Source: a virus
Virus record (IMG/VR): IMGVR_UViG_3300007799_000092
Location: 1 to 20,438 of that record
Length of the DNA stretch: 20,438 nt
Direction: 5' to 3' (one strand)
Every line of letters starts with the position of its first letter. The stretch's first letter is position 1. Positions 3,278-18,960 of this stretch are shown one piece after another. The notes below the pieces were generated by a model. It had not been told where the DNA came from and ran no database searches. It saw only the letters and a program-made list of their open reading frames with translations. The position numbers were made by a program, and so were the translations under genes.

Positions 3278-3306
3278 ACACTACGGGAGGTCCGTGATCA
3301 GGGCAA
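3278..3306 (-). promoter_or_regulatory. Divergent leaderless-type promoter for the 94-aa gene
   Basis: On the minus strand TTGCCC (3306-3301) and TAGTGT (3283-3278) are 17 bases apart, and the GTG at 3270 follows seven bases later. GGGCAA at 3301-3306 forms an inverted repeat with TTGCCC at 3318-3323, which is part of the neighbouring operator, so both directions may share control. Confidence 0.5.
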
Positions 3307-3316
3307 GATTCTTACT

Positions 3317-3353
3317 TTTGCCCTTGCAAATGATTCCGATCAAGCCCACAAAT
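3317..3353 (+). promoter_or_regulatory. Operator palindrome and probable promoter for the 292-aa gene
   Basis: TTTGC-CCTT-GCAAA at 3317-3330 matches the operator core seen before three other genes. TTGCAA at 3324-3329 could be the -35 box, with only a poor -10 (ACAAAT at 3348-3353, 18-base spacer). Unlike the other three sites, the gene here has a normal leader with AAGGAG before its ATG. The operator is better supported than the exact promoter. Confidence 0.5.
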
Positions 3354-3391
3354 GGGGTGTACTAAAACCCTTGAGTACGAAGGAGACACAG

Positions 3392-4270
3392 ATGGTTGCT
3401 ACTACACAGATTCAGAACGTGATTGCAGTTGACTCGGCCGACGGTGCCGGAGCTGTGACCTGGTGGCGCTGCTCGGACGTCGACCACACGGCACTGTGCG
3501 AGAAGCTCACCGCGCTGGGCGTGGACGCCAAGCACCACCCGGTGATGGTGGACGACGCCCAGCTGCTGACCCGCGGCCTCAACCACCTGGCCACCCACGG
3601 CAACCTCCGGAGCGGCGGCAAGCTGAAGGTCATCCCGCTGGGCGACACCAGCTGCTACTCGCTGGAGCGCACGACGGTGGTCAACCGGGACGTCCACCAC
3701 ACCACCGTGCTGAAGGTCCTGTTGAAGGACGGCTCGCTCCACTGCTGGGAGGACGAGACCGGAGCGGCCGAGCAGCTGGCCGCGTCCGTCGACAAGTTCC
3801 GCGGCGTGCTGGACGGCTACGACGTGGGCATGTGGTTGGCCGGCGTGGTCCTGCCGTCCATGAACGCGCTGACCCTCCGCGACAGGGGCGGTGTCTACTA
3901 CGTCCCGCCGACCACGATCGCCCGCTACCGCGAGATCGCCGGAGCGCTGGCCGACCTGAGCAAGTGCCGCATCTTCGAGATGCCGGCGATGGAGTGCGAG
4001 CAGGCGTGCGCGGCGATCCTGGACGCGGTCCAGCGCGAGGCCGAGAAGGCCGCCCGCAAGATGGAGGACGAGCTGATCGACGGCGACCTCAGCCCACGCG
4101 CCCTGAAGAACCGGACCCGGGACATCGACAAGGTGCTGAGCAAGGTCGCCAGCTACGAGGCGATGCTGGGCGCCAGCCTGACCACGCTCCACGAGCGCTT
4201 CGAGCTGCTGTCCGCCCAGGTGGCCGCGGCGATCCTGACGGCGTCCGCGCCGGAAGCGGAGGCCGCGTGA
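3392..4270 (+). CDS. 292-aa conserved phage-type protein, function unknown
   Basis: The start at 3392 follows a strong AAGGAG Shine-Dalgarno sequence; the reading frame is open further upstream but that part crosses the divergent regulatory region. The protein begins with a compact N-terminal part (VTWWRCSDVDHTALCEKL) and ends with a long helical, charged segment (about residues 205-285) that could form a coiled coil. No catalytic motif is obvious. It vaguely resembles DUF6744-type proteins found in phages near MoxR/VWA genes, but I cannot confirm this without a profile search. It heads the rightward operon and shares the operator type of the MoxR and VWA genes, so it may act in the same system. 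Confidence 0.8.
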   Translation: MVATTQIQNVIAVDSADGAGAVTWWRCSDVDHTALCEKLTALGVDAKHHPVMVDDAQLLTRGLNHLATHGNLRSGGKLKVIPLGDTSCYSLERTTVVNRDVHHTTVLKVLLKDGSLHCWEDETGAAEQLAASVDKFRGVLDGYDVGMWLAGVVLPSMNALTLRDRGGVYYVPPTTIARYREIAGALADLSKCRIFEMPAMECEQACAAILDAVQREAEKAARKMEDELIDGDLSPRALKNRTRDIDKVLSKVASYEAMLGASLTTLHERFELLSAQVAAAILTASAPEAEAA

Positions 4271-13873: not shown

Positions 13874-14386
13874 GTGGGTCAGCCAGCCGGTCGGCGTTGG
13901 CACCTGGGCGCAGTCAGTGACGGCTCCCCGGATGATCCGCCGGGCCGTCACAGGGTCCTGCTGGTCGGCGAGGACAACCCGCAGACGGCGGATATGGCTC
14001 GCGCGCTGTGGCCGTTCCCGGTCGGCGTAGCGGGTGACCGCCTGGCTCACCGCATCTTGCGTTTGAAGACGTCGACGTACCTCCAGCTGTGGCGGACGAA
14101 CCTTTGCAACCCGCGGTGGTCCGCTCCCCTCGCCGCCCGTCGCGCGCAGGTCCTGCTGGCCGCGATCGGCGAGCTGTGGGACGTCATCGTGCTGCTGGGC
14201 AGGAAGGTCGCCACGATGTTCGACTACCGCCGCGGTTTTTACACCTACCAGGGCCCGCTGGTCAGCATCCCTCACCCGAGCGGGGTGAGTCGCGAGTGGA
14301 ACGACCCGGACGCCGCGCAAGTAGCGAGGATGATGCTCTACCAGGTTGCTCCCGCGGTCCCGTGGGGGGAGGCTGACGTCACGTGA
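13874..14386 (+). CDS. Uracil-DNA glycosylase superfamily protein
   Basis: This 170-aa protein shows the two signature places of the UDG fold: LLVGEDNP at 29-36, in the position of the GxxPG/GQDPY motif, and IPHPSGVSREWN at 132-143, like the HPSPxS motif. VIVLLGRKVA near 104-113 matches the strand-helix common to the family. Members remove uracil or other damaged bases from DNA. The motif I residues are unusual, so the substrate is uncertain. The GTG start lies three bases after the previous stop and lacks a good Shine-Dalgarno sequence. The stop overlaps the polymerase start, and the polymerase itself begins with a second UDG-like domain. Confidence 0.7.
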   Translation: MGQPAGRRWHLGAVSDGSPDDPPGRHRVLLVGEDNPQTADMARALWPFPVGVAGDRLAHRILRLKTSTYLQLWRTNLCNPRWSAPLAARRAQVLLAAIGELWDVIVLLGRKVATMFDYRRGFYTYQGPLVSIPHPSGVSREWNDPDAAQVARMMLYQVAPAVPWGEADVT

Positions 14387-17300
14387 GACGCCTCGCCTTG
14401 TACCCCGGCGATCTGCGGGCCCCGGTGGAGCGCGTCACAGCGCTCGACTACAACAACACCTGCGGTCGCTGCGAGCTGGGCCTGGTCGGCCAGAGCACGT
14501 GTCTACCACCGGCTGGGACAGGACCCGGAGGCGTGGTGGTCGTCGTCGACCAGATCACCGCTGAGGACGACCGCGTCGGTGCCCAGGCGCAGGGCAACCT
14601 GAACAAGATGCTCGCCTACCTGGTCAACAAGTACGCGCGCCGGCCGTTCCTGCTGGACGCCGCGATCAAGTGCCACGCCGGGGCGAAGATCGACGACGAG
14701 CACGTGGAGCAGTGCCGCCCCTACCTGCGCCAGACCATCGAGCAGGCGAAGCCCGACCGGATCATCGTCACCGGCCCCAAGGCAGCCCGCGCCGTGCTGG
14801 GGCGCAGCCCGCACCTCCAGTCGGTGCGCAAGGGCTACGGCTGGCTCTGGACCGCGAGCTGGGCTGACGCGGTCCAGCTGGCAGACGGCCGCACGTGTCG
14901 CCCGGTCCCGGTGTTTTTGGTGATGTCACCGTGGGTGACCGCGACTAACGCGTTCATGAAGCAGTGGCTCTCCGCCGACCTGGAGTGGGCGTGCAACACG
15001 CCGGTCCCGGCGCTGCCGCCGTGGGACGACCACACCGAGGTGGTCGAGACCGCGCAGGACGCCGAGGTTGCCGCCCAGTACCTGCGGGCTGCCGAGGCTG
15101 TGACCATCGACGTGGAGACGTCCGGCCAGATGCACTCCGGCGGGATGCGGGTGGTGTCGCTGGCGATGGCCGCTGCCGGCCGGAGCTGGGTGTGGGACCG
15201 CGTGGCTCTCGCTGACGGTGGTTGCTTCGAGGTGGCTGCGGAGCTGCTGGAGGACGCGACCGTCCCGAAGATCGGGCAGTCCATCAAATACGACATGCAG
15301 GCGATCGAGCAGGGGATGGGGATCACCGTCCGCGGGCTGGCTGGCGACACCCGCGTGTGGCACCGGCAGCTGGAGAGCGACAGCCTCTCCGACCTGTCGA
15401 CGATGGCGGAGCTGGTCGGCATGGGCGGCGACAGCTGGGAGGTCGACGGGATCATCGCTGACCTGGCGAAGCAGGCGGCGCAGGCCGCGCAGTCCACGAA
15501 GCGGGCGCTGATCAAGGCGCGACCTGAGATCGCCGCCGCTCTCAAGGGGACGAAGGACCAGGTGGAGATCCTGTTGTCCGAGTTCGGCTCCACGCTGTCC
15601 GCCGCTGACCTGACCACGCTCAAGCGTGGGTACAACCCGCGCCAGTACGTCTACGGCGACGTGCCGACCGACATCCTCTCCCGCTACAACGCGGCTGACA
15701 CGGTGATCACCGCGGCGGTGGCGGACCACCTGCGCCCGCAGATGGTCGAGCGTGACCTGATGTACACGTGGGACACACTGTGGGGCCCGGCTACTGACGC
15801 CCTCGTGCAGGTCGAGACCTGGGGGTTCCCGGTCGACCGCGGGCGGGTCGAGATGATGTCCAGACACTTCGGTGCGCAGCTTGACGCGCTGAGAGTCAAG
15901 TTCGCCATCTACCCGGAGCTTGACCCGAACAGCCCGCCGTCCGTCGCGAAGCTGCTGTTCGACAAGCTCAAGCTGAAGCCCACCAAGACGTCGGAGAAGA
16001 CCGGGGCGCCGAGCACAGACAAGGTCTCGCTGGACGCGCTCCTCGGTAGACACCCGGTGGTGGAGGACCTGATCGAGTGGCGCCACGTGTCCAAGCTCAA
16101 GAGCCAGTACGCCGACGGGTTGCTCCTGCACATCGCCCCCGACGGCCGCATCCACACGACCTACAACGTGGACGGCGCGAGGTCCGGGCGCGTGTCTTGC
16201 GTTGCTGCCTGGACGCCCGTAGTGACAGCTCGGGGCGTGCTGCCGATCTCCGACGTGGTTGTGGGCGACGCCGTGTTCACACACAAGGAGCGGTGGAGGG
16301 CGGTCACCCGGAGCTGGATCAAAGGCACAGAGGAGATGTACGAGGTCCGGCTGAGCAACGGGGAGGTTTTAACTTGCACCGCCGACCATAGGGTGCTAGC
16401 TGCTGATCAGCGATGGGTAGCCTTGCGAGTGATCATCAATGAGCATTTCCCGTACTTGGGTGTCGGACCCTTTGAACCAGGGCGAGGTCCTGCGGCTCTA
16501 CAAGAGCGCGGAGCTGCTGACCGCCTCTCAGATTGCGGGCCTGTTGGGTACGACGTGCCAGAACGTCCAGCACGTGCTGAGGTCCAAGATCCCCTCAGCG
16601 ACCTACGCGGCGTTGAAGGCTGCGCGCTACTCCGCTTCCAAGACGGGTTCGCGGAACCCCATGAAGGGGAAGGCGCGGGAGGCTCACCCGCGTTGGCAGG
16701 GGGAGTGCTCGGATGGGAACGGGTACCTGACCTGTCTACACCTGGGCCGACGCACCTTCGTGCATCGCCTGGTGATGGCCCGAGCGCTCGGCTTGGAGGG
16801 TTTGCCCGAGGCCCTCGTAGTTCACCACATCGACGGCAACCCGCTGAACAACACGTTGGACAACCTGGCCCTGGTGACGCAGGCGGGTCATCAAGTTGTT
16901 CACTCCATGCAGGAGCAGGACTCCGCAGCGTTGAGATTACGGCGATCCACCGTTGCGGAAGCTATCCGGTATATGACCTCACCGTAGAGGAGGACGAGAG
17001 CTATCTCGCCCACGGGGTCTTTTCCCACAACTCCGAAAATCCGAACATGCAGAACATCCCGTCCGAGGACCGGGGTGCTGACGGCAAGCTGGTGAAGGAC
17101 TGCTTCATCGCCCGTCCCGGCTACATGCTGGTCGCCGCCGACTACAAGCAGCTGGAGTTCCGAGTCGCCGCCGACCTGGCCGGTGATGCCGCGATGCGCG
17201 CCGTGTTCGAGTCCGGGATCGACTTCCACCAGGCGACCGCGGAGTTCATCGCCCCGATCGTGTGGAAGATCCCGGCGGCTGCCGTGACGAAGCTGCACAG

Positions 17301-18960
17301 ATCTCGGGCGAAGTCCTTCAACTTTGGGATCATGTACGGGATGCAGGACGGCGGCATCGCCAGCCGCGCGGGGTGCTCGATCGAGGAGGCCCGGGCGATC
17401 AGACAGGCCGTGCTCGGCAAGTTCCGCCGGTTCGCAGCGTGGGTGCAGGAGTGCCTCGCGTACACCCGCAAGACCGGTCTCGCCTGGACGTACTGGGGCG
17501 GACGCAAGGCCCACTGCCGCCAGCTCTACCGGGTGCTGGACGCGGACGACGGCAAGCGGATCAACGCGGAGAACAGCAGCTTCAACTGCCTAGACGCCGA
17601 GACCGAGGCCCTGACCGAGCGTGGGTGGGTACGCGGCTTCGACCTGTTGCGCGAGGACGTGCTGTTGACCAAGAATCCGGTCACCGGCGCTCTAGAGTGG
17701 CAGGGCATGACGGACCTGAAGCAGTGGCCTGACTACGAGGGCCCGTTGGTGGAATTCAAGAGCCGGTCGTTTAGCGCTGTGTCCACACCAGACCACCGAT
17801 GGCTGGTCCAGGACAAGCACAGCGGAGCCGTCCGGGAGAAGACTACAGCCACCCTGTCCACGCACGGCGACCATCGCATCCACCGAACCGGGGACTACAG
17901 GCCGGCTGTGACAGGCTCGCCGTCCGGCGACGAGGCAGAGTTGCTCGGGTGGTTCGTCACCGACGGCTCTCTCAGTATGGCCAAGGGCGGCTCGCGCGGA
18001 CCCAGACCTCACCCGCGCTGCAGCCTGGTTCAGAGTCCAACAGGTAACCCTGTCAAGCACGCCAGGATCGTGGCGCTCTTAGCGAGGCTGGATACCGCCG
18101 GCGAGGTCCGTGTTCAACCACCGTCTGCCGCGCACGGCTGTACGACGTGGCGGCTCGGTCGGCGGTTGTCTGCGTTGCTGTACGGGTTGGCGCCCGACCG
18201 CCGCCTCACGATGGGGGCCTTGCTGAGGCAGGACCGCGTTGCCCTAGACCGTCTGCGCGAGGCCATGCTACTGGGGGACGGGAGTCGAAGGGGTGCTAGT
18301 TGGGCGTTTACCTCAGGCACCCGTGGGCAGGCGGAGGCGTTTCAGGTCCTCTGCACACTGACCGGGTCGGCCGCCTCCATCGTGTGGCGTGACATGTCCG
18401 GCTACGCCCCGACCTCTGCGAAGATGACCAACGTCCCCCGCATGACCGGGGTGTGGATTGTGACGATTTTGGCTAGGGGCACTGTGCAGGTGCTGGCCGG
18501 CCACCGCCGGGAGTTTCAGTCCAGGCAAGGTGTCTGGTGCCCCGTCGTCCCCAACACGTTTTTCGTGATGCGTCGAGCTGGTCAAGTAGCCATCACCGGC
18601 AACACGCCGGTGCAGGGGACCGCGAGCTTCTACTGTCTGGCGTCCGTCACCGCGCTGGTCCACTGGATCAGACGTACCCGGTTGGACGTTAAGGTGGCGG
18701 CCACGGTCCACGACAGTATCGTGCTGGAGGTCCGTGAGGACCTGGTGCTGACCGCCGCGCGGGAGCTGTCCAAGACGATGACGGGCTGGCCGACCATGAC
18801 GAACGTCCCGCTGGACATCGACGTGACCACCGGCCGCTCCTGGGGCTCGATGAAGGAGTACCTGCTTCCGGAGGCCGAGGCGGCGCTCCTGCTCGGTGGT
18901 CACGGCGCCGCCTCGCAAGTGATGCGCGCCCAGATGACAGACACACCTGCTACAAGCTAG
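14383..18960 (+). CDS. polA: Family A DNA polymerase precursor with UDG-like domain and two inteins
   Basis: The 1525-aa precursor starts at a GTG overlapping the previous stop, with GGGGGAGG upstream. Residues 1-210 resemble a family 4 uracil-DNA glycosylase, with Cys27, Cys30, Cys97 and Cys111 placed like Fe-S ligands. A 3'-5' exonuclease follows: DVETS at 243-247, then IGQSIKYDMQ and YNAADTV. The polymerase domain has motif A VAADYKQLEFR (D920), motif B RSRAKSFNFGIMYG, and motif C TVHDS (D1444). There is no 5' nuclease domain. One intein (residues 606-883) interrupts GRVS/SENPNMQNIP and another (1069-1407) interrupts SSFN/TPVQGTA; both are conserved substrate-contact regions. After splicing the enzyme would have 908 residues. 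It should be the phage replicative polymerase. Confidence 0.93.
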   Translation: MRRLALYPGDLRAPVERVTALDYNNTCGRCELGLVGQSTCLPPAGTGPGGVVVVVDQITAEDDRVGAQAQGNLNKMLAYLVNKYARRPFLLDAAIKCHAGAKIDDEHVEQCRPYLRQTIEQAKPDRIIVTGPKAARAVLGRSPHLQSVRKGYGWLWTASWADAVQLADGRTCRPVPVFLVMSPWVTATNAFMKQWLSADLEWACNTPVPALPPWDDHTEVVETAQDAEVAAQYLRAAEAVTIDVETSGQMHSGGMRVVSLAMAAAGRSWVWDRVALADGGCFEVAAELLEDATVPKIGQSIKYDMQAIEQGMGITVRGLAGDTRVWHRQLESDSLSDLSTMAELVGMGGDSWEVDGIIADLAKQAAQAAQSTKRALIKARPEIAAALKGTKDQVEILLSEFGSTLSAADLTTLKRGYNPRQYVYGDVPTDILSRYNAADTVITAAVADHLRPQMVERDLMYTWDTLWGPATDALVQVETWGFPVDRGRVEMMSRHFGAQLDALRVKFAIYPELDPNSPPSVAKLLFDKLKLKPTKTSEKTGAPSTDKVSLDALLGRHPVVEDLIEWRHVSKLKSQYADGLLLHIAPDGRIHTTYNVDGARSGRVSCVAAWTPVVTARGVLPISDVVVGDAVFTHKERWRAVTRSWIKGTEEMYEVRLSNGEVLTCTADHRVLAADQRWVALRVIINEHFPYLGVGPFEPGRGPAALQERGAADRLSDCGPVGYDVPERPARAEVQDPLSDLRGVEGCALLRFQDGFAEPHEGEGAGGSPALAGGVLGWERVPDLSTPGPTHLRASPGDGPSARLGGFARGPRSSPHRRQPAEQHVGQPGPGDAGGSSSCSLHAGAGLRSVEITAIHRCGSYPVYDLTVEEDESYLAHGVFSHNSENPNMQNIPSEDRGADGKLVKDCFIARPGYMLVAADYKQLEFRVAADLAGDAAMRAVFESGIDFHQATAEFIAPIVWKIPAAAVTKLHRSRAKSFNFGIMYGMQDGGIASRAGCSIEEARAIRQAVLGKFRRFAAWVQECLAYTRKTGLAWTYWGGRKAHCRQLYRVLDADDGKRINAENSSFNCLDAETEALTERGWVRGFDLLREDVLLTKNPVTGALEWQGMTDLKQWPDYEGPLVEFKSRSFSAVSTPDHRWLVQDKHSGAVREKTTATLSTHGDHRIHRTGDYRPAVTGSPSGDEAELLGWFVTDGSLSMAKGGSRGPRPHPRCSLVQSPTGNPVKHARIVALLARLDTAGEVRVQPPSAAHGCTTWRLGRRLSALLYGLAPDRRLTMGALLRQDRVALDRLREAMLLGDGSRRGASWAFTSGTRGQAEAFQVLCTLTGSAASIVWRDMSGYAPTSAKMTNVPRMTGVWIVTILARGTVQVLAGHRREFQSRQGVWCPVVPNTFFVMRRAGQVAITGNTPVQGTASFYCLASVTALVHWIRRTRLDVKVAATVHDSIVLEVREDLVLTAARELSKTMTGWPTMTNVPLDIDVTTGRSWGSMKEYLLPEAEAALLLGGHGAASQVMRAQMTDTPATS
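16198..17031 (+). mobile_element. Intein 1 (class 1) in the polymerase
   Basis: This 278-residue intein begins with Cys606 and ends in His-Asn before Ser884. Block A reads CVAAWTPVVTARG, block B has TADH, block F has VYDLTV, and the end is FSHN. These are complete class 1 splicing blocks. The middle, in the polymerase frame, is Pro/Gly/Arg/Ala-rich and does not look like a folded endonuclease. In the +1 frame the same DNA encodes a full HNH endonuclease, so the homing gene is nested out of frame. Confidence 0.92.
16439..16987 (+). CDS. HNH homing endonuclease nested out of frame in intein 1
   Basis: The frame runs in +1 relative to the polymerase and encodes 182 residues. An N-terminal helix-turn-helix part (LRLYKSAELLTASQIAGLLG) is followed by a standard HNH_3 nuclease region: FVHRLVMARALG, VVHHIDGNPLNN, and LDNLALVT. 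Stops lie just upstream in this frame (TGA at 16430), so it starts by itself at ATG 16439; no good Shine-Dalgarno sequence is visible. Third positions are G/C-rich in this frame. The last 20 or so codons overlap the intein's C-terminal splicing block and are probably not functional protein. It should cut the intein-free polymerase allele and spread the intein. Confidence 0.8.
   Translation: MSISRTWVSDPLNQGEVLRLYKSAELLTASQIAGLLGTTCQNVQHVLRSKIPSATYAALKAARYSASKTGSRNPMKGKAREAHPRWQGECSDGNGYLTCLHLGRRTFVHRLVMARALGLEGLPEALVVHHIDGNPLNNTLDNLALVTQAGHQVVHSMQEQDSAALRLRRSTVAEAIRYMTSP
17587..18603 (+). mobile_element. Intein 2 with LAGLIDADG endonuclease and class 3 signature
   Basis: This 339-residue intein begins with Cys1069 and ends in Gly-Asn before Thr1408. 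Block B is STPDHRW, block F is GVWCPVV, and the residue after the intein is Thr: the Trp, Cys and Thr of the class 3 W-C-T signature. Class 3 inteins typically lack a nucleophile at position 1, but Cys is present here. The middle holds a LAGLIDADG-type endonuclease with ELLGWFVTDGSL and AMLLGDGSR. The penultimate His is replaced by Gly. Confidence 0.88.

Follow-up and report, generated by a model that had tools for sequence, protein, structure and literature searches.

The window, i.e., the whole stretch of DNA analysed (20,438 bases), is a viral contig, the DNA of which gave no match in a phage collection. It carries a family A DNA polymerase gene interrupted by two inteins, the first of which harbours an HNH endonuclease ORF in another reading frame. 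The features concerned are the following:

14383..18960, plus strand: family A DNA polymerase precursor ORF, with a UDG-like N-terminal part, a 3'-5' exonuclease and a polymerase, interrupted by two inteins

16198..17031, plus strand: intein 1, 278 codons, from Cys1 to His-Asn, with Ser as the +1 residue

16198..16434, plus strand: N-terminal splicing part of intein 1, with Cys1 and a TADH motif (TIGR01445; Hint fold with pLDDT 88-93)

16425..16432, plus strand: weak ribosome-binding-like stretch gcgagtga, 5' of the ATG at 16439, overlapping the HNH-frame stop TGA at 16430-16432

16439..16987, plus strand: nested HTH-HNH_3 endonuclease ORF, 182 amino acids, with its own ATG and TAG, in the +1 frame relative to the polymerase

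16459..16896, plus strand: shadow stretch of the HNH gene in the intein frame (intein residues 88-233), predicted to be disordered and with few conserved columns

16523..16588, plus strand: predicted helix-turn-helix of the nested endonuclease (helices 29-36 and 40-50; AlphaFold2 model)

16757..16894, plus strand: HNH_3 catalytic domain, VVHHIDGNPLNN...DNL...GH, based on a Pfam match and invariant residues

16927..16987, plus strand: double-coding zone, shared by intein block F and the end of the HNH ORF (last codons and stop; C-block match and flatter divergence)

16930..17031, plus strand: C-terminal splicing part of intein 1, VYDLTVEEDESY...HN (TIGR01443)

17587..18603, plus strand: intein 2 of the same polymerase, 339 amino acids, Cys ... 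Gly-Asn^Thr, in frame, with intein-like ends

Intein 1 is inserted in a conserved polymerase segment (SGRVS^SENPNMQNIP). All elements of a Hint-type intein were retrieved, namely an N-terminal Cys, a block B TxxH, a C-terminal His-Asn and a +1 residue, together with both splicing profiles in the polymerase frame (TIGR01445 at residues 1-67 and TIGR01443 at residues 257-278, out of 278). As an earlier note on this DNA had stated, the polymerase frame remains open and resumes in splicing block F. Because Cys1, the Thr and His of block B and the terminal His-Asn are invariant in an alignment of 12 diverged inteins, intein 1 is, as judged from its sequence, splicing-competent. AlphaFold2 modelling (alignment of 12 inteins) gave pLDDT values of mostly 85-93 for the two ends of intein 1 and of about 25-32 for its middle, which is the shadow translation of the HNH gene; the best solved match of the intein model was the NpuDnaE intein (E 5e-7, TM 0.82 by target). 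Intein 2, searched alone against Pfam, PHROG and NCBIfam, gave no match. In addition, a UDG-superfamily-like ORF lies directly 5' of the polymerase gene (13874-14386), and a second UDG-like stretch (14383-14850) is fused to the polymerase N-terminus.

The nested ORF was rightly located in the earlier note, with respect to both its coordinates and its +1 frame, and its description there as a full HNH_3 endonuclease with a helix-turn-helix part, an ATG and a stop was confirmed. Indeed, searches of both translations with profiles, as recommended in that note, assigned HNH_3 (PF13392, E=3e-12) and phrog_7545 (residues 18-164, E=2e-19) to the nested ORF and the two splicing profiles to the intein, and the helix-turn-helix was predicted by AlphaFold2. 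The His, Asp, Asn and His columns of the HNH_3 motif are invariant in the family. The AlphaFold2 model of the nested HNH was of medium quality (pLDDT 74), and its top match, the intron homing endonuclease I-HmuI, was weak (Foldseek E 0.63; profile E 0.024).

The start of the nested ORF is conserved as well, being ATG in 29, GTG in three and TTG in one of 33 aligned loci. The mean length of the upstream Shine-Dalgarno matches exceeded that of every one of 300 shuffles, and a match of at least four bases preceded 85% of the starts versus 33% of the control windows. The ribosome-binding-like site of the window itself is weak, the matches being far stronger in its relatives, such as locus L003, with AAGGAGG a few bases 5' of the ATG. 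Because an ATG, GTG or TTG start is conserved, with Shine-Dalgarno matches, the nested endonuclease is probably made without splicing, in line with what the earlier note had supposed. Alternatively, programmed +1 ribosomal frameshifting from the intein frame could yield a fusion of the N-intein and the HNH, which would agree with an HNH frame that is +1 relative to the host and that begins just past the N-terminal splicing part. This is, however, quite unlikely, given that 33 out of 33 aligned loci have a start codon, which in most of them follows a Shine-Dalgarno match, and that HNH-frame stops lie directly upstream of it, both in the window (16430-16432) and in L003; moreover, the terminase inteins described below would require a shift in the opposite direction.

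Relatives were retrieved through an IMG/VR protein search and wider searches, followed by a systematic classification of frames. The IMG/VR search yielded relatives at 43-56% identity, the layout being identical in all of them. At least 31 distinct viral polymerase loci, on contigs from many metagenomes, were found to contain a nested HNH, in the +1 frame in 31 out of 31, although these counts are not frequencies, as the searches were seeded with nested HNHs and inteins. Relatives with the HNH in frame with the intein, which would have contradicted the reading of the earlier note, were not encountered; all intein-borne relatives of this HNH family are +1. The same note had considered two compensating indels that mask an ordinary in-frame HNH, i.e., a sequencing or assembly artefact. 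The probability of such an artefact is negligible, since the identical +1 layout occurs on at least 31 distinct contigs, the HNH family begins at a conserved start codon and not at an indel, and the terminase class dealt with below includes named phage records (TJE1, Highwayman and LS06-2018-MD07). Hence, an artefact was rejected on the basis of conservation, and a chance ORF was rejected too, on the basis of the 31 loci and their avoidance of stops.

This avoidance of stops is moderately improbable in the window alone, the polymerase frame of which stays open with a P of about 0.006 upon synonymous shuffling of the GC-rich HNH codons. Across the loci, the intein frame beneath the HNH contained no stops in 31 out of 31 cases, as compared with about 199 expected from synonymous shuffling, these values describing a set of related loci and not independent-sample probabilities; the third frame contained five to 19 stops in the full-length nested polymerase loci. 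The intein frame acquires a stop solely when the last base of an HNH codon is T and the next codon begins with AA, AG or GA. At the junctions in front of such next codons in the 31 loci, T was used in 0 out of 1343 cases, whereas it was used elsewhere in 887 out of 3691 (24%). In contrast, 14 non-nested HNH relatives contained 245 stops in the same frame, with 241 expected by shuffling. Because the nested loci lack stops, and lack T at these junctions, while the non-nested relatives match the shuffled rate, selection holds the intein frame open. The HNH frame is in turn conserved as a protein, as indicated by pairwise divergences in the HNH body of 0.33, 0.25 and 0.50 at codon positions 1, 2 and 3, respectively, which are least at position 2 and most at position 3. 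The claim of the earlier note that both frames are under selection is thus upheld by the lack of stops in the one and by the divergence pattern of the other. In the HNH tail that overlaps block F, the divergence is flatter (0.29, 0.32 and 0.39), as expected for two constrained frames, and the N and C parts of the intein display the usual codon-position pattern in the polymerase frame.

As found by tblastn, the named-phage sequences nearest to the nested HNH reside in introns of DNA polymerase genes. The enzyme of phage Pf-WMP3, I-PfoP3I, has been shown experimentally to be a nicking enzyme; the group IA2 intron in which it is located separates a Pro codon from an Asn codon, and the intron of phage phiL7 (gp45) follows two codons further (PMC3428280). 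These sequence relatives resemble the nested HNH in that each has its own start and is housed in a splicing element. The insertion points of the introns (P^N or PNL^) almost coincide with that of intein 1, the intein site being four to six codons upstream of both intron sites. Unlike intein 1, however, group I introns leave as RNA, so that the host frame need not be open; intron-borne relatives contain seven to 28 stops in it. Given such relatives in introns of the same gene, the nested segment could itself be an RNA intron that is removed before translation, in which case the intein frame need not be read. This is very improbable, as the intein frame is free of stops in every polymerase locus tested and the window and loci L002-L004 gave no Rfam intron match, the latter search having a low power, since intron loci L082, L083 and L086 also reached only weak, sub-threshold Intron_gpI scores.

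In a tree of 47 HNH sequences, which is unrooted and in which the nested loci need two changes, the intron-borne HNHs form one well-supported group adjoining the nested HNHs of L318, L320 and L325, and three non-nested HNHs fall inside another branch that holds nested ones. On this sequence evidence, one endonuclease lineage has used both inteins and introns near the same target codons. The nested HNH of L325 and L326 is located in an intein at a different polymerase site (PNLQQ^C). The earlier note had also proposed that a free-standing homing gene invaded a mini-intein. This is plausible in view of relatives that occur in neighbouring introns and as free genes, the unrooted tree being compatible with a transfer in either direction. 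Further arrangements were encountered around the same polymerase codons. The polymerase of L102 (2700-4600) displays a split-intein-like structure at GRMS^C and, a few codons further, at SADP^NLQ, an insert resembling an intron, the HNH of which belongs to the same family. In the bacterial contigs L157 (a Verrucomicrobia MAG) and L158 (Erythrobacter), a polymerase fragment that breaks off near these codons precedes the HNH (around 3300-4040), and a second polymerase half was not found nearby.

Several observations concern the mobility of the element. The polymerase of L394, which is 79% identical to that of the nested locus L091, has a precise, uninterrupted site (DAGRYA^CRSPNLQQVP), and more distant relatives of L091 are also uninterrupted at that polymerase site; a search for an intein-less close relative of the polymerase of the window found none. 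HNH distance tracked intein distance (r 0.63, partial 0.60, Mantel P 0.001), the partial correlation with polymerase distance being 0.21, and the likeness among nested loci was 29% for the polymerases, 45% for the HNHs and 42% for the inteins. The HNH and the intein hence seem to travel as a pair. Locus L260 (3501-3965) contains a polymerase intein of about 155 residues from which the HNH core has been deleted, with an open intein frame and with the leftover HNH start and end readable in one frame, as a cycle of gain and loss of a homing gene predicts. At the same polymerase site, L166 and L259 (3501-4004) contain an intein of about 167 codons without HNH and with two in-frame stops in the middle, which is probably a split intein. 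In L089 (4190-5437), a second intein is located only about 30 codons 3' of the nested intein, before the rest of the polymerase.

A scan of intein loci for any out-of-frame HNH revealed 11 loci of a different kind, which constitute a second class. These inteins interrupt the terminase large subunit (Pfam Terminase_6N, Terminase_6C or Terminase_3, combined with Hint or Intein_splicing), and their nested ORF encodes an HNH-zinc-finger protein in the +2 frame. A further scan brought this class to 88 distinct loci (L340, L334, L364, L552 of TJE1, L553 of Highwayman and about 80 more), with an open host frame in 87 out of 88. The 86 loci tested (GC content of 31-67%) contained no stops as compared with about 182 expected. 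The +1 frame can always be opened by synonymous changes, whereas the +2 frame requires that Met does not precede a codon starting with A. Indeed, Met followed by Ile, Met, Thr, Asn or Lys would force a host-frame stop in this class, and these combinations occurred for 0 out of 101 Met residues, versus 39 out of 157 in the polymerase class. A general rule whereby only +1 is free of cost was rejected, the terminase class being +2. Three named records belong to the class, namely Tetrasphaera phage TJE1, Acinetobacter phage vB_AbaM_Highwayman and Rhodobacteraceae phage LS06-2018-MD07. In these records, such as those of TJE1 and Highwayman, the terminase is the only one of the two genes that is annotated. 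Since the layout is shared by at least 31 polymerase inteins and, independently, by more than 80 terminase inteins, mobile elements are genuinely and recurrently built in this manner.

Two loci of the terminase class show that stops appear once the frame is free. L502 (2720-3682) has 12 host-frame stops under an intact HNH, and L555 (Vibrio phage 1.238.A; 2100-3500) has an N-intein, an HNH and a separate Hint C gene in succession, with a closed host frame. L555, and probably L502, look like a broken, split state.

Phage HNH proteins encoded beside terminase genes can have roles in DNA packaging, and some free-standing relatives of the terminase class do adjoin terminase genes (Acinetobacter phage BP10 and Salmonella phage Shemara). 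The nested HNH may accordingly have been domesticated for phage biology, such as DNA packaging or replication, and not serve homing. This is unlikely, however, as the empty sites in close relatives of L091 and the HEG-deleted intein of L260 fit a selfish homing cycle, and the HNH is co-inherited with the intein rather than with the polymerase. Intein 1 is best read as a shelter for a homing gene with its own start, the frame of the intein having to remain free of stops.

In canonical homing inteins, with a LAGLIDADG or in-frame HNH endonuclease, a Hint domain, an endonuclease between blocks B and F and a conserved insertion site are found, as is the case here. Their endonuclease is part of the precursor and is released by splicing, whereas that of the window would be a separate product from another frame; an in-frame position was not found in any of the 31 polymerase loci. 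In-frame HNH inteins do occur in the polymerases of gut phages L238 and L239, and one has been described in the dCTP deaminase of CL131 (PMC6293099). The closest precedent is the ShiLan domain, a complete out-of-frame HNH in a methylase gene without a splicing element (PMC11855218). Similarly to the window, the frame of the host gene is kept open, and the patchy distribution of the ShiLan domain has been read as homing (PMC11855218). Unlike in intein 1, a splicing domain is lacking and the shadow peptide remains in the methylase. In addition, the ShiLan HNH is in the +2 frame and has zinc fingers and a GTG start, as checked on ShiLan gp65, whereas the HNH of the window is +1, has a helix-turn-helix and lies between intein splicing blocks. 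Mycobacterium phage Pacc40 gp60, which is named in the ShiLan paper and matched an intein query, turned out to have an ordinary in-frame intein at the matched place.

Fractured genes, reportedly described by Dassa et al. in 2009, are said to consist of split inteins with a free-standing endonuclease between the halves. The order of N-intein, endonuclease gene and C-intein is the same in the window. Intein 1 is, however, contiguous, with an open frame, and the single open frame of 14383-18960 implies that the polymerase and intein 1 are not broken into two genes; it is L555, and probably L502, that resemble the broken state.

In-frame HNH inteins, introns with their own HNH ORFs and the out-of-frame HNH of ShiLan are thus already known. 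A description of an out-of-frame homing gene inside an intein was not found in the literature searched, the scope of which did not include a 2025 preprint on actinobacteriophage inteins with a 'non-canonical architecture' (bioRxiv 10.1101/2025.01.02.630785), which, as far as can be judged from its citation in the ShiLan paper, may overlap with the present findings. The remark in the earlier note that no standard description of this layout exists was hence nearly right, apart from the ShiLan domain, which is a close precedent without an intein (PMC11855218).

Taken together, intein 1 is very probably a mobile intein with a homing endonuclease gene nested in its +1 frame, which has its own start and stop and is not fused to the intein. 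Translation of a free HTH-HNH endonuclease would start internally, and the enzyme would introduce a cut or nick into polymerase alleles devoid of the intein, at the conserved GR(L/V)SxxxPNLQNIP codons, after which repair would copy the intein together with the gene; the intein itself would be translated with the polymerase and removed by splicing. We lean towards the broader view that bi-frame inteins make up a general class of phage mobile elements that has formed repeatedly, whereby a free homing gene settles between the splicing blocks in the other frame, selection keeps the intein frame free of stops, and breakage of this frame results in a split intein with the endonuclease between its halves. 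The two independent classes, the HEG-deleted L260 and the broken L502 and L555 fit this evolutionary order. Such inteins are probably under-reported, because annotation drops one of the two genes.

An intein is usually described as a fusion of two activities within a single reading frame. In the present case, one stretch of DNA encodes the loop of a splicing protein and a homing enzyme in different frames, across very diverged phages. This indicates that an intein can carry a homing gene that would be made without splicing, and suggests, in a manner that can be tested, how contiguous inteins may give rise to split ones. Furthermore, homing by inteins and by introns at the same polymerase codons is connected through one endonuclease family, and the nested loci represent natural overprinted gene pairs with clear and separable constraints.
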